A DNA stretch of 42,035 nucleotides. Source: Candidatus Moraniibacteriota bacterium (GTDB lineage: Bacteria > Patescibacteriota > Minisyncoccia > Moranbacterales > GWC2-37-73). The position numbers and the translations under genes are program-made. The notes beneath the pieces are model-generated. The model made no database searches, was not told the origin of the DNA, and was given only the letters and a program-made list of their open reading frames with translations. The stretch is taken from assembly GCA_028715015.1 (NCBI GenBank), contig JAQTLF010000006.1:1-42035 (forward strand). Direction: 5' to 3'. This document shows, in pieces, positions 5,151 to 39,613 of the stretch (position 1 is the first letter of the stretch; each line of letters opens with the position of its first letter).

Positions 5151-6710
5151 TTATTGCCACATTTCGATGGCTTTGGCCACACGTTCCAATGATTGTGTTT
5201 TTCCCAAAACCCAAGCACATTCGAACGGCGATGGAGATTTTTGCTCGCCAGTCAGAGCCGTGCGAAGCGGCCAAAGCAAATCTCCACGTTTGTCACCGGC
5301 AGCTTCCAACAATTTTTCTTCGATTTTTTCAAGGGTCCATTGGTCTTCAGCAATTTCTGTAAGAACTGTCTGCGATGTTTTCAAAGACAAAAGCAATTCT
5401 GCGTCGGTTGTTGTTTTCCAACGCAGCATTTCTTTTTCATAGGAAATATCCTGAAAAAAGAATTTGTTTTCCTCGCCAACGTCGGCAAATTTCAGCAAAC
5501 GCTGCTTTTCCACAGCCAGAACTTTTTTCAAATATTCTTCTTTTTCTTGCATGCTCCATGTTTCATGCTCCATGTTCCATGTTTTGAAAAAATCTTTCTG
5601 TTTGAAAAATGGCAATGCATTTTGCAACAGTTCCTCATCCGAAAGTTTTTTGATGTATTGTCCATTGATCCAATCAAGTTTTTTGATGTCAAAGACAGCT
5701 CCAGCCTTGTGCACTTTGGCTAGTTCGAATTTTTCCACCAATTCTTCCAGAGAAAAAATCTCTTGCACACTTCCCTCCCCCGGATTCCAACCGAGCATTG
5801 CCACAAAGTTCAGAATCGCTTCTTTCAAATATCCTTTAGCAATATAATCTTCCACAGCCACATCGCCTTGTCGTTTGGAAAGCTTGGTTCGATCAGGATT
5901 CAAAAGCAATGGCAGATGAGCAAAAATTGGCACTTCCCAACCAAAAGCCCTATACAAAAGAATGTGTTTCGGTGTGCTTGGAAGCCAATCTTCGCCGCGA
6001 ATCACATGTGTGATGCCCATCAGATGGTCATCAACCACATTGGCCAGATGATATGTTGGAAATCCATCCGACTTCATCAAAACTTGGTCGTCAATGTTGT
6101 CAGTATTGAAAGAGACTTTGCCGCGTATCTCATCTTCAAAAACAATGCTTTCATTTTTTGGAATTTTCAAGCGGATGGTCGCAGGACAAGCTTGTTTCAA
6201 TTTTTCATTTATATCTTCAGTTGCAAGATTAGTGAGACAATATCTGTCATACATGGGAGCTTTTTTTTCTTTTTGCTGCTTTTCACGCATTTCATTCAAT
6301 CTTTCCGGCTCGCAAAAACAATAATATGCGTGACCATCTTTGACCAATTGCTGGGCATATTTTTTGTAAATTTCAGTCCTTTCCGATTGGGCATATGGGC
6401 CACAAGATCCGATTTCGATGGTGTTCGGATATGTTTTTGATTCAGACCTGATTGAGTCAGCGTTGGCAAGTGATGATTTCAAAAAATTTCCCTCATCCCA
6501 TTCCAGCCCCATCGCGCTCATTGATTGCAGCAACTGTTCAGCCGCACCTGGAACAAATCTGGCCTGATCAGTGTCTTCAATGCGTATCAAAAAAGATCCG
6601 CCTTGCTTTTTTGCAAACAAAAAATTATACAAGGCAGTCCTGAAATTTCCGATGTGCATGTAGCCTGTCGGCGAAGGTGCAAAACGTACTCTGATATTTT
6701 TTTTATTCAT
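5151..6710 (-). CDS. gltX: Glutamate--tRNA ligase
   Basis: RFAPSPTGYMHIGNFRTALYN (HIGH motif), KLSKRQGDV (KMSKS-like). Confidence 0.96.
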   Translation of the reverse strand: MNKKNIRVRFAPSPTGYMHIGNFRTALYNFLFAKKQGGSFLIRIEDTDQARFVPGAAEQLLQSMSAMGLEWDEGNFLKSSLANADSIRSESKTYPNTIEIGSCGPYAQSERTEIYKKYAQQLVKDGHAYYCFCEPERLNEMREKQQKEKKAPMYDRYCLTNLATEDINEKLKQACPATIRLKIPKNESIVFEDEIRGKVSFNTDNIDDQVLMKSDGFPTYHLANVVDDHLMGITHVIRGEDWLPSTPKHILLYRAFGWEVPIFAHLPLLLNPDRTKLSKRQGDVAVEDYIAKGYLKEAILNFVAMLGWNPGEGSVQEIFSLEELVEKFELAKVHKAGAVFDIKKLDWINGQYIKKLSDEELLQNALPFFKQKDFFKTWNMEHETWSMQEKEEYLKKVLAVEKQRLLKFADVGEENKFFFQDISYEKEMLRWKTTTDAELLLSLKTSQTVLTEIAEDQWTLEKIEEKLLEAAGDKRGDLLWPLRTALTGEQKSPSPFECAWVLGKTQSLERVAKAIEMWQ

Positions 6711-9022: not shown

Positions 9023-9062
9023 TGGGAAAAAATTTAAATAAAGGGTTTGTTTTTTGCTATTT

Positions 9063-9130
9063 CACCTAAATCTGAAGTTGCGAAGCAATTTGCGTGAAGC
9101 GTTAGCGTAACTAGATATTGTGAGTTCTGC
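9063..9130 (-). other. attC-like recombination site 1
   Basis: Minus strand R''=GCAGAAC (TACATC-flanked), R'=(T)TTAGGTGAAAT; internal motifs GCGAAGC/GAAGT shared with the other sites. Confidence 0.5.
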
Positions 9131-9158
9131 GATGTAAAAATGGTACTGGCACTAGTTT

Positions 9159-9614
9159 TTATTTTGCATTTTTTCCAATAGCGTTCCATGGAAGCTCTAT
9201 GCCAACTTCAGCAAAATGATTCAGTACCCATTGTGCATAAGTATTACTATTTGTCCCACTCGATACATACTTTTGGACATATGGATAATTTTCTTTGCTC
9301 ATTTTGATGAAATCAATCATTTCTTTTGCCATCTCCCCCTCTACCTTCTTTAATAAACGACTTTGCCAGTACCATCTAGCGGAAAAATGAAAAATTTCAA
9401 TTCCACTAAACGGCGGGTAATGATTCTTATGCAAAAATCCCCATGTTTTATCTTTATTCGCTCGGAATAATACTTCCCATCTTGAAATTTTTCCTTTTTC
9501 ATTACACACAAACCATGGATGGATGGCGAAATTAAAAGGCACATGAGCGGGACAAAACAAGACAAAAACTTCGTATTTTTCTGGATCAATAACGCTGTTA
9601 TCATTATTATTCAT
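9159..9614 (-). CDS. Hypothetical protein (possible cassette gene)
   Basis: 151-aa ORF ending next to attC-like site 1, same orientation as the other cassette genes. Confidence 0.6.
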   Translation of the reverse strand: MNNNDNSVIDPEKYEVFVLFCPAHVPFNFAIHPWFVCNEKGKISRWEVLFRANKDKTWGFLHKNHYPPFSGIEIFHFSARWYWQSRLLKKVEGEMAKEMIDFIKMSKENYPYVQKYVSSGTNSNTYAQWVLNHFAEVGIELPWNAIGKNAK

Positions 9615-9679
9615 ATTACAGGATGTAATTTAAAAATCCTTGTTTCCTATTCTGCATGCAATCATGGCAAATTCATTTT

Positions 9680-9937
9680 TTAATTATTTTCAGCCATCCT
9701 AACACCTTTCTCTATGCCATTTTTGCGACCTGCTTCAAAATTTATTTCGTCCTCACTTTTTTCTTCATTACAACTAACCTGTTCAAAATTACCAGCATAT
9801 CCTTCGGCAACGCCCTGTTTGAAGCCTTTGTCATATTTTATACCTCTTTTATAGCTATCACTCACTTGCTCTTTACTCATATTGTCCTTTATAATTATTC
9901 CCATATTCTCAGGACTTGGCATCATACTTTCTTTCAT
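9680..9937 (-). CDS. Small hypothetical protein
   Basis: 85-aa ORF, charged, same strand as neighbours. Confidence 0.4.
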   Translation of the reverse strand: MKESMMPSPENMGIIIKDNMSKEQVSDSYKRGIKYDKGFKQGVAEGYAGNFEQVSCNEEKSEDEINFEAGRKNGIEKGVRMAENN

Positions 9938-10051
9938 ACATTTGTTGTTTAAATTGATTATTTAAAAAATGACTTCGCCCCGATTGAATTTGTTTTTTTT
10001 CTTTTGAAAAATGAAAGAGGGTTGGGGTGAATTTCTTTTAAAAAAGACTCC

Positions 10052-11152
10052 TTACAGATTTAATATTTTTATTAATTTTTCAAACCTGTAAACTTTGTTT
10101 CTCTTTTGTTTAGAGTCTGCTTCTTTTAATATTCCAGCATCAACAAATTTATTTATCAAACTAAAAAATGTTTGGGTATTTTTAATCTTAACGTGCTTAT
10201 GCAAGCTAGCAGTAGTGAAAATTGGACGAATAAAAATTGCATCGAGCAAATGCGAAGCATAGGTCGAATTTAATTCCATAATTTTTTCGCGATACTCTTG
10301 ATGCAGTTTTAAAATTGATTTAGCAGTTTCTTCTGTTTTTTGAGCCTGAACAGTTAACGCATTTAGGAAGAATTTAATCCAATTTTCCCAATCTTGTTGC
10401 TCGCTTACGTTGCGAAGCAATTCATAATATGTCTGCCTATGCTCTTCAAAAAATTCACTCAAATACAAAAATGGATGAGAAAGTAATTTTTTCTCATATA
10501 AAAATAGTGAAATAATCAAGCGACCCACTCTTCCATTGCCATCCAAAAATGGATGAATTGCTTCAAACTGATAATGTGCTATGGCAATTTGCACCAAATT
10601 GTCTTTTTCCTCGTCTGAATTTAAATATTTTTCCAAATTTGCAAATAGTGGAATGATTTCATTGGCTGCTGGCGGAATATATGAGGCTTCAGAAATTTCC
10701 GCGCCTGGCATGCCAATATATACTTGAACTTTTCTAAATTCACCTGGCGCTTTGTTGGCACCACGACCAGATTTCAGCAAAGTTGCATGAATTTTTTTGA
10801 TCAAGTTTTCCGACAATGGCAATGTTTCCAAACTTTTAATTCCCAAATCTAAAGCCCTGCGATAATTGATAATCTCGCTGATATCTTGCTTTTTTGTTTC
10901 ACTCTCATTTTTATCGTTCACTGCGTCATATGCCAAAACTTCATCAAGTGTAGCTTGCGTTCCCTCAATTTGCGAACTCAAAACAGCCTCTTTTGTCTGC
11001 AAAGTGCGACCAAGGAGGCTTGGATTTGGCAGAGCACTCAAAAGCGAGTCCAGACTGGCAATAGCTCGATGCGCCTTGGTTATGTGTCCAATCAATTGCT
11101 CGTAATCTATTTTTACGGGTAATTTTGGCGGAATAAAGGGTTTTTTGCTCAT
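10052..11152 (-). CDS. Fic family protein (AMPylase-type) with C-terminal winged-helix-like region
   Basis: HPFLDGNGRVGRL Fic active-site motif; Fic_N-like N-terminus. Confidence 0.93.
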   Translation of the reverse strand: MSKKPFIPPKLPVKIDYEQLIGHITKAHRAIASLDSLLSALPNPSLLGRTLQTKEAVLSSQIEGTQATLDEVLAYDAVNDKNESETKKQDISEIINYRRALDLGIKSLETLPLSENLIKKIHATLLKSGRGANKAPGEFRKVQVYIGMPGAEISEASYIPPAANEIIPLFANLEKYLNSDEEKDNLVQIAIAHYQFEAIHPFLDGNGRVGRLIISLFLYEKKLLSHPFLYLSEFFEEHRQTYYELLRNVSEQQDWENWIKFFLNALTVQAQKTEETAKSILKLHQEYREKIMELNSTYASHLLDAIFIRPIFTTASLHKHVKIKNTQTFFSLINKFVDAGILKEADSKQKRNKVYRFEKLIKILNL

Positions 11153-11160
11153 ACTAATGA

Positions 11161-11242
11161 CTAGAATAAGGATTAAACTTATTCTAGTGAGCTAGAATAA
11201 GAGACTTTCTTATTCCAATAATAGCACTTATACTAGAATAAG
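11161..11242. promoter_or_regulatory. Operator cluster: repeated CTAGAATAAG half-sites upstream of fic
   Basis: CTAGAATAAG-N7-CTTATTCTAG (11161-11187), CTAGAATAAG-N7-CTTATTCcAa (11192-11218), CTAGAATAAG (11233-11242). Confidence 0.75.
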
Positions 11243-11453
11243 GCAATGGCAATGTATGCAACTTCTCATAAAATCAGGTGTGAATTTCATTTTTAAAAGC
11301 TCCTATCGAAACAATTTACTTAAAATTTTTGTGCGGGTGGTGCATATGATGGCATCCACACATAATCACTAAAATCTTTCTTTAATCCATTCACTGAACT
11401 ACATTTCATATCGTAATAACTTCTTTCTTCGACACCACGCTTCATCTGAAGCT

Positions 11454-11485
11454 AAGACGACCCACCTCAGAGGTCGTCTTTTTTA
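11454..11485 (+). terminator. Rho-independent terminator-like hairpin
   Basis: AAGACGACC/GGTCGTCTT followed by T-run. Confidence 0.6.
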
Positions 11486-11613
11486 TATAAAATATTTTCA
11501 TAGCGAAGCATAGAAACTCCTCATCCCCCTCCCTTAATAAATAAAAATCGAATTTTCTGTCCCCATTAAACCACTAAACTTTCAAATTTTCACAAAGATA
11601 AAAAATTTATTTC

Positions 11614-11739
11614 GTTGAACGTTTGCGTGTATCAGAAGTTTTTTCGAAATGAAATGAGAAAAAATTTGGGTGGAGAAAATTTGCCTTCCTTATTATTTTA
11701 TTTGAGCAAATTTTCGCAACCTGATACACGCTGTTCTGC
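11614..11739 (-). other. attC-like recombination site A
   Basis: GTTGAAC ... GTTCTGC ends; 11-bp perfect stem GCGTGTATCAG/CTGATACACGC; inner stem GAAAATTTGC/GCAAATTTTC. Confidence 0.65.
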
Positions 11740-11829
11740 GATGTTGAATTTATTTTTTTGTCCACTCCTAAAATAAAAAATTGGAATTGGGCGAGAGGCT
11801 GGGCTACCTCTCGCTTTGAAAATATACTT

Positions 11830-12018
11830 TTACTTCTTATGAATATCCAACGTGAATATCACTCTTGGTTCAAAGAAGTCGAGCAGAACATCACCACGTG
11901 TAAGGATCATTCCTTTTAATTCATCTACATCCGTGAGTTGATGTATCTCTCGACCAGCCGCTACATTTTCAACTTCTTCATAAGGAACTATTTGGATTAC
12001 TGCTACATACTTACTCAT
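11830..12018 (-). CDS. Small hypothetical protein (cassette gene)
   Basis: MSKYVAVIQIVPYEE..., SD CAAGGAGGTG, promoter TTGATT-N16-TATAAT (12074-12101, minus). Confidence 0.65.
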   Translation of the reverse strand: MSKYVAVIQIVPYEEVENVAAGREIHQLTDVDELKGMILTRGDVLLDFFEPRVIFTLDIHKK

Positions 12019-12073
12019 ATGCACACCTCCTTGGTTTGTGTTAGCCCAATTCCAATTTTTTATTTAATTTTAC

Positions 12074-12101
12074 ATTATACATACATTAGCTAAAAAATCA
12101 A
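12074..12101 (-). promoter_or_regulatory. Promoter TTGATT-N16-TATAAT
   Basis: Read directly on minus strand. Confidence 0.6.
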
Positions 12102-12152
12102 TAGGTATAATGAAAAATACTAATTAAGGGACAAAAAAATAAATTCAATTTC

Positions 12153-12229
12153 GCAGAACGTTTGCCCATCATGCGAAGTGCGAAGCATTTGGGTGGAGCT
12201 TTAGCGAAACCGCATATGGGCTGTTGGGC
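12153..12229 (-). other. attC-like recombination site B
   Basis: Minus strand: GCCCAAC AGCCCATATGCG...CGCATGATGGGC AAAC GTTCTGC; R'' matches RYYYAAC. Confidence 0.7.
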
Positions 12230-12253
12230 GATGTAATTTAAAAATCTCACTCC

Positions 12254-12715
12254 TTATTGTTTTGACAATTTATTTCTTCCTCGTTTTATCTGATCAATAC
12301 ATTCTTCTTTAAGTATGCCAGTTTCAATATGCAACTTACGTTTAGTTTTTTTCGCAAGGTCAAAAACAGTCACATATGGGTCCATACTTTTTTCGCTAGG
12401 CGCGCCAAAATAAAAAAAAGTAATTCCCGCCTTGATTGCAGCCGACATACACATTGAACATGATTCAGCGTTACTAAAAAGGCAATATTCTTCCAAAACT
12501 CTAGTTTTATATTTCTTGCCAGCTTTTCGCAAAAGATTTATTTCAGCGTGAGCAGTGGGGTCACAATCAGTTTTGGAAGTATTATGAGCCACTTCAACTA
12601 TATTGCCTTTTTTGTCGGTCAATATCGCACCAAATGGGGAATTACTTTTTTTTATTCCTTTTTCAGCTTCATCCATGGCGCGCCGGATTAAATTTTCCTT
12701 AGTTTGTTTATTCAT
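12254..12715 (-). CDS. Nucleoside/nucleotide deaminase (CDA fold; cassette gene)
   Basis: TAHAEINLLR zinc motif and SCSMCMSAA. Confidence 0.88.
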   Translation of the reverse strand: MNKQTKENLIRRAMDEAEKGIKKSNSPFGAILTDKKGNIVEVAHNTSKTDCDPTAHAEINLLRKAGKKYKTRVLEEYCLFSNAESCSMCMSAAIKAGITFFYFGAPSEKSMDPYVTVFDLAKKTKRKLHIETGILKEECIDQIKRGRNKLSKQ

Positions 12716-12772
12716 ATGCGAAAGAGGAGGAAATAAATTGTATTTTAATAAAGGAGATTTTTAAATTATTTC

Positions 12773-12806
12773 GCCCAACTCCTTATATACGAACTCGTTG
12801 ATATTT
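12773..12806 (-). other. Candidate attI-like or truncated attC site C
   Basis: Minus strand ATCAAC-N15-GTTGGGCGAAATAATTT; perfect GTTRRRY, adjacent to integrase relic. Confidence 0.45.
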
Positions 12807-12838
12807 TACACTCAAATTAGCTATAATTTGAGTGTAAA
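12805..12838. repeat. Perfect 15-bp inverted repeat TTTACACTCAAATTA-gcta-TAATTTGAGTGTAAA
   Basis: Read directly; lies between site C and integrase relic. Confidence 0.85.
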
Positions 12839-12858
12839 CTTTAAATCATAATTGTGTT

Positions 12859-13093
12859 ATGAACGAAAGTTATTATCCAAGTCAAGATCCAATTGAAAAA
12901 TTGAAACAAGAAATGAAGCTTCGAAAATTCAGTCCGAAGACCATCAAATCTTATTTATATTATATCATGGATTTGCTGGAATGTTCAAGCAAGAACCCAA
13001 AAATTGTTAGGGAATGCCAAGTTGGAAACGACACAGATTTACACCAAGGTTGCCAACAATAATTTACAAACCATCAAAAGTCCGCTAGACTGA
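12859..13093 (+). pseudogene. Tyrosine recombinase/integrase relic (N-terminal SAM-like domain joined out of frame to C-terminal tail)
   Basis: DPIEKLKQEMKLRKFSPKTIKSYLYYIMDLLE (integrase N-domain); other frame reads NAKLETTQIYTKVANNNLQTIKSPLD* (catalytic Tyr tail). Confidence 0.88.
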
Positions 13094-13144: not shown

Positions 13145-13621
13145 ATGAAATTAACCATTATTAAAAATCCTAATCCCCTTTTACGTGTTAAAACCGTGAA
13201 AATCAAAGATCCTCTCAACCAAGATGTGCAGGAGCTTGTTTCGAATATGGTCGAAACCATGTATGCAGGCAATGGTGTGGGCTTGGCAGCCACTCAGGTC
13301 GGCTCTGATTTGCGCTTGTGCGTGATTGACGCGGAAGGCACGCTCTATGTCCTCATTAATCCTCAAATCACCGCCAAATCGAAAACCAAGGTCATTTCCG
13401 AGGAAGGCTGTCTCAGTTTTCCCGGCCAATATTTCCCCATTTCCCGACATAAGGAAGTACAAGTGCGCTATGTTGATGAAAATGGCCAACCTGCCAAATT
13501 GAAAGGACGAGATTTGTTGGCCAGAGCCATTCAACATGAACTCGATCACCTTGATGGCATTCTCATCATCGACAGGATCAAAAAGAGTCGCTCGAAAATA
13601 AAAAGTGTACCAAAAAAATAA
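13145..13621 (+). CDS. def: Peptide deformylase
   Basis: GVGLAATQVG, EGCLSFPG, QHELDHLDGIL. Confidence 0.96.
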   Translation: MKLTIIKNPNPLLRVKTVKIKDPLNQDVQELVSNMVETMYAGNGVGLAATQVGSDLRLCVIDAEGTLYVLINPQITAKSKTKVISEEGCLSFPGQYFPISRHKEVQVRYVDENGQPAKLKGRDLLARAIQHELDHLDGILIIDRIKKSRSKIKSVPKK

Positions 13622-14589
13622 TGGAGAAAAATTCAAAAAAAATAAAACTGCGGGTTGTTTTCATGGGAACTTCTGATTTGTCACAAGCTGTTCTCAAATC
13701 ATTGATTGAAGATGAATACAATATCATTGGCGTGTTCACCAAGCCTGACACCAAAATCGGACGCAAACAAGAAATTGAAAAGCCGCTCGTCAAACAATTG
13801 GCCGAAGAGCATCAGATTCCAGTTTTCCAACCTTTGCGCTTCAATGCCGAAGCTGTTGAACAACTGAAAAAATTGAAACCCGACATGGTCATCGTGGCAG
13901 CATATGGAAAAATAATTCCCAAAGCTGCTTTGGCAATTCCCGGTTTTGGCTGCATCAATGTGCATGTTTCCCTTTTGCCCAAATATCGCGGACCTTCTCC
14001 GATTCAAAATGCCTTGCTGAATGGTGAAAACCAAACCGGTGTCACCATCATGCTTATGGATGAAGGCGTCGACACTGGAGACATTTTGGCCCAGGAAAAA
14101 TCCAACATTGAACCAAATGACACCACTGAAACTTTGATGCAAAAATTGTCTTTGGCTGGATCTGATCTTTTGCTCAGAACCATTCCTCTTTGGATTGAAA
14201 GAAAAATCGAAGCCAAGCCGCAGGATCACAGCCAAGCCACGCTTTGCCAATTGATTGAAAGGTCTGATGGCAAAATTTTTTGGACCGATGATGCGGAAGA
14301 AATTTTCAACAAATTCAGAGCTTTGACGCCTTGGCCGGGAATTTTCACCTTTTGGAAGAACAATTCGCAGCTAGTTCGTTTGAAACTCATTTCCATCGGA
14401 TTGCAAAAAACAAATCCACTTGAAAAACGTCGTGTTGGTGAAGTTTTTGAAATTGGCAGCGACATCGGAGTGCAGACAGAGCAAGGAATCATCCTTCTCA
14501 ACGAACTTCAAATGGAAGGCAGGAAGTCGTCCGACATCAGATCATTCATCAACGGACACACTGATTTCATTGGCAGCATTTTGGAATAA
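13621..14589 (+). CDS. fmt: Methionyl-tRNA formyltransferase
   Basis: FMGTSDLSQAVL, NVHVSLLPKYRGPSPIQNALLNG; overlaps def stop. Confidence 0.95.
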   Translation: MEKNSKKIKLRVVFMGTSDLSQAVLKSLIEDEYNIIGVFTKPDTKIGRKQEIEKPLVKQLAEEHQIPVFQPLRFNAEAVEQLKKLKPDMVIVAAYGKIIPKAALAIPGFGCINVHVSLLPKYRGPSPIQNALLNGENQTGVTIMLMDEGVDTGDILAQEKSNIEPNDTTETLMQKLSLAGSDLLLRTIPLWIERKIEAKPQDHSQATLCQLIERSDGKIFWTDDAEEIFNKFRALTPWPGIFTFWKNNSQLVRLKLISIGLQKTNPLEKRRVGEVFEIGSDIGVQTEQGIILLNELQMEGRKSSDIRSFINGHTDFIGSILE

Positions 14590-35980: not shown

Positions 35981-36424
35981 TTACTTATGAATTTTATTCA
36001 GATTTGAAATTTTTAGAAATTCGGCAAAAGCTTTTTGGGACGTTGATTTTAACGGATAATCTTCATAACTTCTTGGGTCTATCCATTCATAACTATCATG
36101 ATCTTTACTGAGAACTACTTTGTCGGTGTCAGTTGAACATTCAAAATATATCCCGACAACCTGCCATTGCTCATCTCTAATAATAGGTCGATATTCCCCA
36201 ACAAAAAAAGGCTTGTGAATGATTAAAGATGTTATTCCAACTTCTTCATTAATTTCACGCAACAGAGCAGCATCAAAAGGTTCACCTGGTTCAACTCGCC
36301 CACCAGGTATTTCATATTTGCCAGCACCAACTCCATCCTCATAGGCATCTGCCTCTCGAATTATTAATACCCTATTTTGATGGACGATAAAAGCTTTTGT
36401 GGAAATAAATTGTTTTACATTCAT
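35981..36424 (-). CDS. NUDIX hydrolase
   Basis: GGRVEPGEPFDAALLREINEEVGI Nudix box. Confidence 0.93.
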   Translation of the reverse strand: MNVKQFISTKAFIVHQNRVLIIREADAYEDGVGAGKYEIPGGRVEPGEPFDAALLREINEEVGITSLIIHKPFFVGEYRPIIRDEQWQVVGIYFECSTDTDKVVLSKDHDSYEWIDPRSYEDYPLKSTSQKAFAEFLKISNLNKIHK

Positions 36425-36563
36425 ATAAAAAATTTCAAATCTGAATAAAATTTTATACTTCTCGTCTTGGATTCAGGTCAGAGGGGTCAGAAGTGAATGG
36501 CCTGGAGTCAAGACTCCTTATTGGTAATTATATGTGGTATTTATTGGGGTGGCAAATAAAAAA

Positions 36564-37376: not shown

Positions 37377-37530
37377 GCGTTTTTGCCTGATTTTGTTAAA
37401 CATTAATAAACTTTTTCTGCCCCTTTGTGGGTTGAAAAAATCCTTATTACCCCTAGTTAAATAAAAGAAAAAACAAAATTAGATTCTTTTTTGAGCCAAG
37501 GCGTTAGCCCAAAAGGAAAACGTGCATTTC

Positions 37531-37606
37531 GCACAACGTTAAGAATATCTGAAGTTCATTGTAGCGTAGCGGAAATGAATTTGGGTCGAGTCCTGATATT
37601 CCTTAA
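37531..37606 (-). other. attC-like site D (partial/degenerate)
   Basis: GCATTTCGCACAACGTTAAGAATATCTGAAGTTCATTGTAGCGTAGCGGAAATGAATTTGGGTCGAG shared with site E; other end degraded. Confidence 0.5.
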
Positions 37607-37612
37607 TATATT

Positions 37613-38464
37613 TTAATTTTGTATTTTTTTTGCGAATCTAATTCTTATTTTTTTACTACTGTTGGATTTCAAAAAATTATTTTCTGAAATAACTGGTCTG
37701 CCAATTCTTCTCTCAATTTGTTTTCTGGCTGTTCCAGCAACTTCCCCGCCAAGCCTAGCGTCATCTTTTAATTTTTGCATACCCCTGGAATCCTTGGTTT
37801 TGTGAATTTCTTTCGTAGTTCTTTCGCCAAGCATAGTTAGAATTAATTCAAAATCATCCATATGATCACGAAGATTTTCGTGTTGCAAACCTTTTATTCT
37901 TTTATATGCATAAGGCTTTATTCCAAATGTAGCTTGTGAAATTTCTGCGGTTAAGATTTCATAGTCTTGCTTATATTTGGCGCCTCTTTTTTGCCACTCA
38001 TCAGTCAACTCCTCACGAATTGCAATGCCTCGCATCCTCATTTCAATCCATTCTTCAGGATAGCCTTTGAGCTTATATAGCAATCTTGTTCGCTTACTGG
38101 CAAGTTCCGGATCTTCCACTTCCTGAATACGCTCATAGCCAACTTTAGCCAACCATCGCTTGAGTGGTTCAACCTTAGGTGAAGGAATGTTTTGTATAAT
38201 ACGAAGTAGTCCTTCAGTATTGGCACAATCAGTTTCGCGCATTTTTCCGTCTTCAGCGAGCAATTTCAACTGTTCCCAAAACGGGAACGGTTCAAATAAG
38301 GCTTTGTCGCGATCTTTCATTTTTGCCCAATAAGTTTTCGGGTGTGGACTATCTGTTATAACATGGATTATATCCAAAATCGAAAACCACCACTCTTTTT
38401 GATGAATGACCTTTCTGATAGTTTTGCCCTTGAAAATGGCAATGTGATTTTCTGGATTTTGCAT
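37613..38464 (-). CDS. BRO-N/antirepressor family protein (DinD-like)
   Basis: FKGKTIRKVIHQKEWWFSILDIIHVITDSPHPKTYWAKMKDR, LKRWLAKVGYERIQEVEDPEL. Confidence 0.88.
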   Translation of the reverse strand: MQNPENHIAIFKGKTIRKVIHQKEWWFSILDIIHVITDSPHPKTYWAKMKDRDKALFEPFPFWEQLKLLAEDGKMRETDCANTEGLLRIIQNIPSPKVEPLKRWLAKVGYERIQEVEDPELASKRTRLLYKLKGYPEEWIEMRMRGIAIREELTDEWQKRGAKYKQDYEILTAEISQATFGIKPYAYKRIKGLQHENLRDHMDDFELILTMLGERTTKEIHKTKDSRGMQKLKDDARLGGEVAGTARKQIERRIGRPVISENNFLKSNSSKKIRIRFAKKIQN

Positions 38465-38578
38465 GGCAATTGATAATATTTTTTATCTTAATGATATTAT
38501 ATCACTATTTACAAAAATTGACTACTAGAGTTATACCCAGATTTAATAAAAGATTCTACCAAAATTTCCATGCATTTC

Positions 38579-38706
38579 GCACAACGTTTAAGAATATCTG
38601 AAGTTCATTGTAGCGTAGCGGAAATGAATTTGGGTCGAGAAAATTTTGCCTTCATCTGCTTATTATAAAGTGAAAAATTTTTTTAGCCAGATACTCTTTG
38701 TTAAGT
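38579..38706 (-). other. attC-like recombination site E
   Basis: GCACAAC ... GTTAAGT (RRRY consensus); stem AAGAATATCTG/CAGATACTCTT; flanked by ATTTC and GATGTA signatures. Confidence 0.65.
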
Positions 38707-38725
38707 GATGTACCTAAAAATTTCT

Positions 38726-39613
38726 TTACCTTAAATATTTCTTTGGCAATGCATTTGTATCTATAAATTTTGGCATTGAAAGTTTAAAACTTTCTTTCAC
38801 GCCAAGAGGCTCTACACCAGTTAATTCACGCATCAAACCATTATCTAATGATGTATCCGGTAAAAAATCGACAGGTTTTTCTTTTGGCATTGTTTCGCCA
38901 ATTAAATTTTCCGTTGATAAACCAAGGGCTTCCATACCCTCCCTTGTAAAATCATACACACTCATTCGCTCTCCACGGATATGAACTGTTCCATTGTATT
39001 CTGATGCTGCAAGTTTCACAATCGCCTCAGATGCCTGTTGGTAACTCAATGGAGATTTATACATATCCGTAAAGCGAGAAATTTTCCTGCCTTCGGTAAT
39101 GTCTTTCTTAATTTTTTCAAAACGGCTATCCAGATGCGAATCCACGAAACCATACATATAGCTAGGTCTGGCGATGCAATAATTATCTGAATATTTTTTT
39201 ACTAATTCTTCGCATAGCTTTAGATTTTTTCCATACAAAGTCACGGGATGTGGTATATCACTTTCTTTATATGATCCACTTTCGCCCTCAAAAATACCAT
39301 CACTTGAAATGTAAACTATCCTGCTTTTCTTGCAGGATTCAAGAAATCTTGTCATTGATTCTGTTAACTTTTTTTCATCCTCTTCAAATTCTATTTTTGC
39401 AGAAAGAAAAACCACATCGATTTTTTTGCCTTCTATTATTTTACCAATGTCATCAATAAAAAAATCAAATTCTTTCGAATTTGGATATTTCTTGTTTTTG
39501 TGATGAGTTAAAATTATCTCATCACAAATTGACAAAAGATCTTTATATATCTGTTCTCCTAAAAATCCCGCCCCAATTATAGCTGCTTTCATATTGCATT
39601 TATTACTAATCAA
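38726..39613 (-). CDS. NAD(P)-dependent sugar-nucleotide reductase/epimerase (RmlD-like SDR)
   Basis: AAIIGAGFLGEQIYKDLL, VYISSDGIFEGESGSYKESD, YGKNLKLCEELVKK. Confidence 0.88.
   Translation of the reverse strand: MISNKCNMKAAIIGAGFLGEQIYKDLLSICDEIILTHHKNKKYPNSKEFDFFIDDIGKIIEGKKIDVVFLSAKIEFEEDEKKLTESMTRFLESCKKSRIVYISSDGIFEGESGSYKESDIPHPVTLYGKNLKLCEELVKKYSDNYCIARPSYMYGFVDSHLDSRFEKIKKDITEGRKISRFTDMYKSPLSYQQASEAIVKLAASEYNGTVHIRGERMSVYDFTREGMEALGLSTENLIGETMPKEKPVDFLPDTSLDNGLMRELTGVEPLGVKESFKLSMPKFIDTNALPKKYLR

Follow-up and report, generated by a model that had tools for sequence, protein, structure and literature searches.

The stretch of DNA that we analysed, 42,035 nucleotides long and referred to below as the window, carries two clusters of attC-like sites. 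Cluster 1 (9059-13090), beside def and fmt, is an integron-like array with an integrase remnant, an attI-like site and two cassettes with good site boundaries. From right to left its order is integrase remnant, attI-like site, deaminase cassette, site B, small-ORF cassette, site A, a Fic/DUF3750 stretch and site 1.

13145..14589, plus strand: chromosomal anchor genes def (polypeptide deformylase) and fmt (formyltransferase), assigned by position and sequence
12859..13090, plus strand: integrase gene remnant; of the 278 residues of the integrase, 1-52 remain and are joined, in a different frame, to 247-278
12768..12795, minus strand: attI-like site, left arm (A)GTTCGTATAT, short spacer, right arm TTGGGCGAAAT after G
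12254..12715, minus strand: ORF of cassette 1, cytidine/deoxycytidylate deaminase family; the cassette starts with GTTGGGC and its attC R″ is GCCCAAC
12148..12234, minus strand: attC-like site B, R″ GCCCAAC, R′ GTTCTGC, ACATC and GAAAT flanks
11830..12024 (frame 11836-12021), minus strand: ORF of cassette 2, 64 aa, no Pfam match
11609..11744, minus strand: attC-like site A, R″ GCAGAAC, R′ GTTCAAC, perfect L stem of 11 bp, ACATC and GAAAT flanks
9159..11152, minus strand: probable ex-cassette region with a Fic family ORF (10052-11152), a small ORF (9680-9937) and a DUF3750 ORF (9159-9614)
9059..9135, minus strand: attC-like site 1, decayed, R″ GCAGAAC after ACATC, R′ arm TTTAGGTGAAAT with its first G changed, part of L′ gone

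The integrase gene has lost its middle together with most of the catalytic residues and, to judge from what is left of it, the integrase of cluster 1 is dead. The R boxes of cassette 2 (GTTCTGC and GCAGAAC) match at 7 of 7 positions, and the region between 9159 and 11152 probably consists of former cassettes whose inner boundaries have been lost. In two loci of the same genus (L016 and L018) an intact integrase adjoins def and fmt, with sites bearing the same signature, and in a locus of the same family (L020) def adjoins the integrase. The small ORF of cassette 2 is flanked by a perfect 22-bp inverted repeat (11771-11792 and 12044-12065).

Cluster 2 (37526-39613) has no adjoining integrase and comprises the following features.

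38726..39613, minus strand: cassette ORF, RmlD/NAD-dependent epimerase family, immediately before R″ of site E
38574..38711, minus strand: attC-like site E, R″ ACTTAAC, R′ GTTGTGC, ACATC and GAAAT flanks
37613..38464, minus strand: cassette ORF with a Bro-N domain
37526..37610, minus strand: attC-like site D, an L′/R′ half with GAAAT, R″ side not recognisable

Sites D and E have 52 identical bases in common. Near this cluster, an ORF of the NUDIX family has a perfect 25-bp inverted repeat on either side (35990-36014 and 36428-36452).

Two short sequences mark the sites, and our analysis confirmed that the motif itself is real. On the minus strand GTTNNNYGAAAT occurs at 11609-11620, 12148-12159, 12768-12779, 37526-37537 and 38574-38585; the window holds 8 matches against 2.47 expected, a number reached in none of 100 shuffles, and those at 1857, 5489 and 36252, which lack a surrounding attC, are probably due to chance. 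On the plus strand GTTNNNYGATGT is found at 9124, 11733, 12223 and 38700, with 7 matches in the window against 0.91 expected (equalled in 0 of 100 shuffles), of which those at 5645, 5678 and 19413 are probably fortuitous. In the minus-strand reading, GTTNNNYGAAAT is the R′ arm plus the cassette start of the attC-like sites, and the reverse complement of GTTNNNYGATGT, ACATCRNNNAAC, is the cassette end plus the R″ arm. This agrees with the original prediction, which read both sides outward into the cassette: its GAAAT side is the cassette start and its GATGT side the cassette end. Not only does every real site in both clusters have the common polarity that it proposed, but the G-to-T change that it noted in site 1 is also there, as TTTAGGTGAAAT at 9059-9070 on the minus strand. 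Two points need correcting: 12768-12779 is the R arm of the attI-like site and not a two-sided attC, and site D (37526) retains the L′/R′ half alone. The GATGT side is likewise real, although weaker than the GAAAT side (TC strong, ACA moderate). An Rfam scan of the window returned no match.

Beyond the window, we searched related genomes with a detector blind to the flanks, which required RNNNAAC, a hairpin stem and GTTNNNY alone. It found 52 sites in 593 kb of the order set (10 in shuffles) and 54 sites in 394 kb of the phylum set (6 in shuffles). In a set of 73 sites from 40 loci, filtered by stem and L-box letters with the flanks ignored, the claimed five-base extension emerged again: GAAAT is present at 47 of the 73, AT at +4/+5 at 68, TC before R″ at 58 and ACATC at 37. 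The information content on the GAAAT side of these sites is 1.15, 1.19, 1.40, 1.82 and 1.65 bits from +1 to +5, peaking at +4/+5, and then falls to 0.24, 0.06 and 0.07, so that conservation ends abruptly past +5; the ACATC side has 0.58, 0.77, 0.60, 1.13 and 1.65 bits. Because many phylum-level loci (L237-L256) were chosen from pattern matches, mostly with GAAAT, the unbiased figure is that of the integrase-selected loci, where GAAAT stands at 24 of 30 sites, compared with 1.3% (71/5336) of all GTTNNNY there, a background that counts the true sites too. A pattern search on the L′ and R′ letters alone in 124 genomes of the same order gave GAAAT in 55 of the 150 matches listed. The sites have the RYYYAAC/GTTRRRY core in a partly relaxed form, R′ positions 4-6 being variable and the AAC/GTT, first R and last Y being imposed by the detector. 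As a structural detector for classical attC yielded too few sites in IntI loci, our classical control consisted of the starts of six class 1 integron first cassettes; in this small control six different flanks follow GTTRRRY, none of them conserved.

Some variants were seen along the way. An R′ variant, GTTATACGC[AC]AT, recurs after many L′ boxes in pattern matches from various genera and may mark a particular cassette start or the array end. In one array (L084, G129:C17) an identical GTTATCTAAAACC follows at least four sites, which suggests that one cassette is present in several copies or that the boundary has been homogenised. In another locus (L241, 7973-10232) three copies of a palindromic element, GTGCCGCGGC..., lie between attC-like sites.

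The hairpin is also conserved as a structure. For 58 distinct 11-bp L stems, Watson-Crick pairing is found in 51-58 of 58 at each position, a count inflated by a detector that selects for stems, against about 18 with shuffled partners at the variable positions; all four pair types occur at most positions, a strong covariation whose spread goes beyond the detector's making. The spacers are short and asymmetric (A / AAAC), with usually one A between R″ and the stem and 3-5 bases, ending in AC, between the stem and R′, and the L′ box has a conserved two-base TT, extrahelical in appearance. Within the extension, GA and TC are paired in 56-58 of the 73 sites and the following two bases are unpaired. 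Of the two strands, the plus strand of the window, corresponding to the bottom strand of the sites, gives the better fold at site A (z -6.0 versus -4.0) and at site B (-2.0 versus -1.2, a moderate value), whereas site E folds no better than shuffles. The preference at sites A and B is like that of classical attC, where recombination of the bottom strand is about a thousand-fold better (PMC8946536). Unlike in classical attC, a single base here separates R″ from the start of the L stem, which is paired as far as the R box.

The sites recur across the order and the phylum, as the scan of other Patescibacteria set as a check on the original prediction was meant to establish, and they are organised as arrays. 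They lie upstream of a tyrosine recombinase and point away from it, with a single polarity in 43 of 44 cases; the sole exception is a palindromic site read in reverse. The R box at the cassette start is perfectly matched by the R″ of the cassette's own attC in 29 of 58 cassettes (shuffles: mean 3.4, maximum 9), and the other half is imperfect partly because intermediate sites are missed. Such matches would be the trace of a circular cassette inserting through its own attC. Of the 29 cassettes bounded by perfect R boxes, 28 contain an ORF of at least 60 aa and in 26 it runs in the direction of the array, so the motif does delimit ORFs. Altogether, the 73 sites in 40 loci with their inverted R and L boxes, covarying L stems and ORFs have the makeup of arrays of cassettes. 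The cargo is varied and includes DUF218, a Na/Ca exchanger, a type II methyltransferase, APH-like and nucleotidyltransferase-like folds and a homing-type endonuclease. Many contigs stop just upstream of the integrase, which is expected because repeated sites break assembly.

Related short integrases with attC-like arrays were also observed in Bacteroidota (L174 12818-13857, L185 11105-11981 and L218 10489-13878). There too the cassette R boxes match, for example GTTCTGT/ACAGAAC and GTTAGGT/ACCTAAC in L174, but the arrays follow the integrase on its downstream side and run the same way as it does, an arrangement known from Treponema integrons, and the flank is looser (NNNAT).

An attI-like site adjoins the integrase gene, which in the window is a remnant. 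Our alignment of 27 such sequences, nearly all located 58-101 bp upstream of the integrase frame, gives a consensus of roughly NTTCGYATATAAANGA then GTTNNNYGAAAT. The left arm resembles the attC L′ box (CTTCNNATA), and the right arm after the G consists of 11 bases, TTNNNYGAAAT; although the site is no cassette, it carries the GAAAT extension. The arm recognised by E. coli XerD, TTATGTTAAAT, is of the same form. Dif sites are built of two 11-base arms around 6 bases (PMC8371274). By this resemblance, the right arm of the attI-like site may correspond to a Xer arm. A search for the classical dif sequence in 20 relatives found none, so the comparison is limited to arm length and general form.

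The integrases are 270-290 aa long and combine PF00589 and PF13495, and a strong relative of the window integrase is present in 42 of 131 genomes of the order. They have the tyrosine recombinase fold with its catalytic residues: R138, K163/K166, H227, R230, H253 and Y262 (Y262 T263) are invariant in the alignment, the top fold match is 2a3v, and the best matches in the PDB are archaeal XerA (4a8e, the closest solved sequence) and the integron integrase IntI4 (2a3v). The NCBIfam model NF040815 (site-specific tyrosine recombinase/integron integrase, XerA type) scores above its cut-off, and the integron integrase model TIGR02249 scores below it, its match split into two stretches. The spacing between a conserved E and the active-site H falls into two groups, 51-63 residues versus 94-96 (IntI1 and other IntI); the array-associated Patescibacterial integrases, with 53-60 residues, have no IntI-specific domain near patch III. 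The BLAST alignment with IntI1 has its gap at the same place, where the sequence comparison with IntI4 in the PDB also breaks. The integrases are XerA/IntI-like tyrosine recombinases without the IntI-specific domain of about 42 residues. With IntI1 as a query and a threshold of 1e-38, which a very divergent IntI could escape, we obtained one match in 380 genomes of the phylum, with an insert of intermediate length, and none in 124 genomes of the same order. One Patescibacterial integrase (L262, G272:C5) has about 20 extra residues near the place of the IntI domain; this stretch is not obviously homologous to it and may be an intermediate or an independent insert.

In the phylogenetic tree strong support places the XerC/D proteins, that of the host among them, outside, and IntI forms one clade (support 100), among or beside the short integrases, that excludes all of them. 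The tree gives no choice between gain of the domain by IntI and its loss by the short integrases (p-AU 0.418 for the short integrases as one clade beside IntI). We also considered the host's own XerC/D-type protein (C11) as a possible operator of the sites; it is 35% identical and belongs to a separate branch. A passage in Ghaly et al. (2022, PMC9668308), citing Messier and Roy (2001), treats the IntI-specific domain as defining and necessary for integron recombination, so attC recombination by the short integrases is not to be assumed. The absence of this domain, together with the lack of a conserved flank in the six class 1 cassettes, indirectly supports the distinct integrase specificity that had been suggested for the extended motif. 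The other parts of that earlier reading (delimited ORFs, neighbouring recombinases and recurrence) are shown computationally by the comparisons described above.

Motif conservation, hairpin covariation, polarity, attI position, R-box identity, ORF content and the absence of the IntI insert all come directly from the computation. We put a probability of about 85% on the reading that they suggest, namely that Patescibacteria possess an integron-like system whose attC-like sites have two asymmetric outer arms, seen here as the motif. A recombinase of 270-290 aa and of XerA/IntI type, without the IntI domain, would be encoded beside a double-stranded attI-like site made up of a left arm, a short spacer and a right arm G^TTNNNYGAAAT, and would capture gene cassettes in circular form by way of the attC of each, a site that forms a hairpin and would be recombined as a single strand in its folded state; capture in this manner would result in one cassette orientation and in an array pointing away from the integrase. 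With GAAAT and ACATC added, the R box of 7 bases would grow into an arm of 11 bp, TTNNNYGAAAT, as long as the arms of Xer dif sites; of the extra bases the first two would pair when the site is folded (GA with TC), and the other three would be read as sequence. We infer the recombination chemistry, the cleavage at G^TT, the contact with the 11-bp arm and the use of a single strand. As the local integrase is deleted in the window genome, the two clusters probably either are relics or need an enzyme from elsewhere.

The extension might instead reflect shared ancestry or some other function of these bases, for instance in expression at the start of the cassette, and not contact with the integrase. 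All the sites come from one phylum and the flank is looser in the Bacteroidota arrays with related short integrases, as this would have it; yet the 3′ flank is part of the next, unrelated cassette, GAAAT was kept in sites whose L stems have diverged so far as to show all four pair types, conservation stops abruptly at +5 with its peak at +4/+5, and the attI-like site, which is no cassette, has the extension too. On balance we regard ancestry or another role as unlikely. Somewhat less probable still is that the arrays were built by a classical IntI, since lost or acting from another cell (CALIN-type), and that the short integrases beside them have nothing to do with them. In favour of this, an intact integrase is missing from the window genome, cluster 2 has none adjoining, and arrays without integrase are common in the literature (PMC9668308). 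Such relics would not account for about 25 loci that combine an intact short integrase, a conserved attI-like site 58-101 bp upstream of it and a one-polarity array; moreover, the IntI1 searches were nearly empty across the phylum and empty in the order, and the site geometry (spacers of 1 nt and 3-5 nt, pairing next to the R box) is unlike that of classical attC. Finally, the sites are imperfect palindromes between ORFs, as other hairpin repeats (REP/IS200-type elements or terminators) placed there by chance would be, but the identity of the start and end R boxes within a cassette, the attI-like half-site beside the integrase and the fixed polarity already strongly disfavour this idea, to which we give hardly any weight.

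Returning to the integron-like system, a broader proposal, which we hold tentatively and at somewhat below even odds, is that short XerA-like integrases run true integrons with Xer-length arms in Patescibacteria (and, at first look, Bacteroidota) with no need of the IntI domain. They would stand either for the stage from which integrons arose or for a second solution, with the extended GAAAT arm taking over the contacts that the IntI domain makes. Patescibacteria are tiny, mostly uncultured bacteria, and integrons are a major bacterial system of cassette capture. Current tools rely on the IntI domain and on attC models trained on classical sites, and since the recombinase here lacks the integron-defining domain, they probably miss the system; a set that spans the phylum and has another integrase and longer arms would be overlooked or reported as orphan arrays. 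A gene-capture route for the reduced, host-dependent Patescibacteria would follow, and the origin of integrons from Xer-type recombinases would become testable, as one could ask which part of attC recognition preceded the IntI domain. Our literature search, which left bioRxiv and subscription journals outside, found no description of integrons in Patescibacteria, CPR or Parcubacteria.

With integrons in general, the system shares an integrase divergent from the array, an attI-like site between the two, one ORF and one attC-like hairpin per cassette, a core like RYYYAAC/GTTRRRY, a cassette-start R box that matches its own R″, and a fixed polarity; it differs in the lack of the IntI-specific domain and in R arms extended by GAAAT and ACATC. 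Compared with the class 1 integron (IntI1, attI1), the integrase is 29% identical, with the same catalytic motifs, and cassettes likewise start with GTTRRRY, but IntI1 has about 45 extra residues and its six first cassettes have no conserved bases after GTTRRRY. The archaeal integrons (Ghaly et al., 2022, PMC9668308) were also found by genome mining in uncultured lineages; their IntIs, however, keep the IntI-specific domain and were found by a profile of it. With XerA and Xer-dif the likeness lies in the closest solved sequence (4a8e), in NF040815 and in the 11-bp arm length, and PaXerA, from archaea, binds att structures with stem-loops as well, if with lower affinity (PMC8371274). Instead of a single chromosomal 11-6-11 dif site served by the host Xer, there are many cassette-bounding sites per array, and the host XerC/D-type protein has its own gene and its own branch in the tree. 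Judged by these comparisons, the system appears to work like an integron and, by its domain content, is not an IntI integron.
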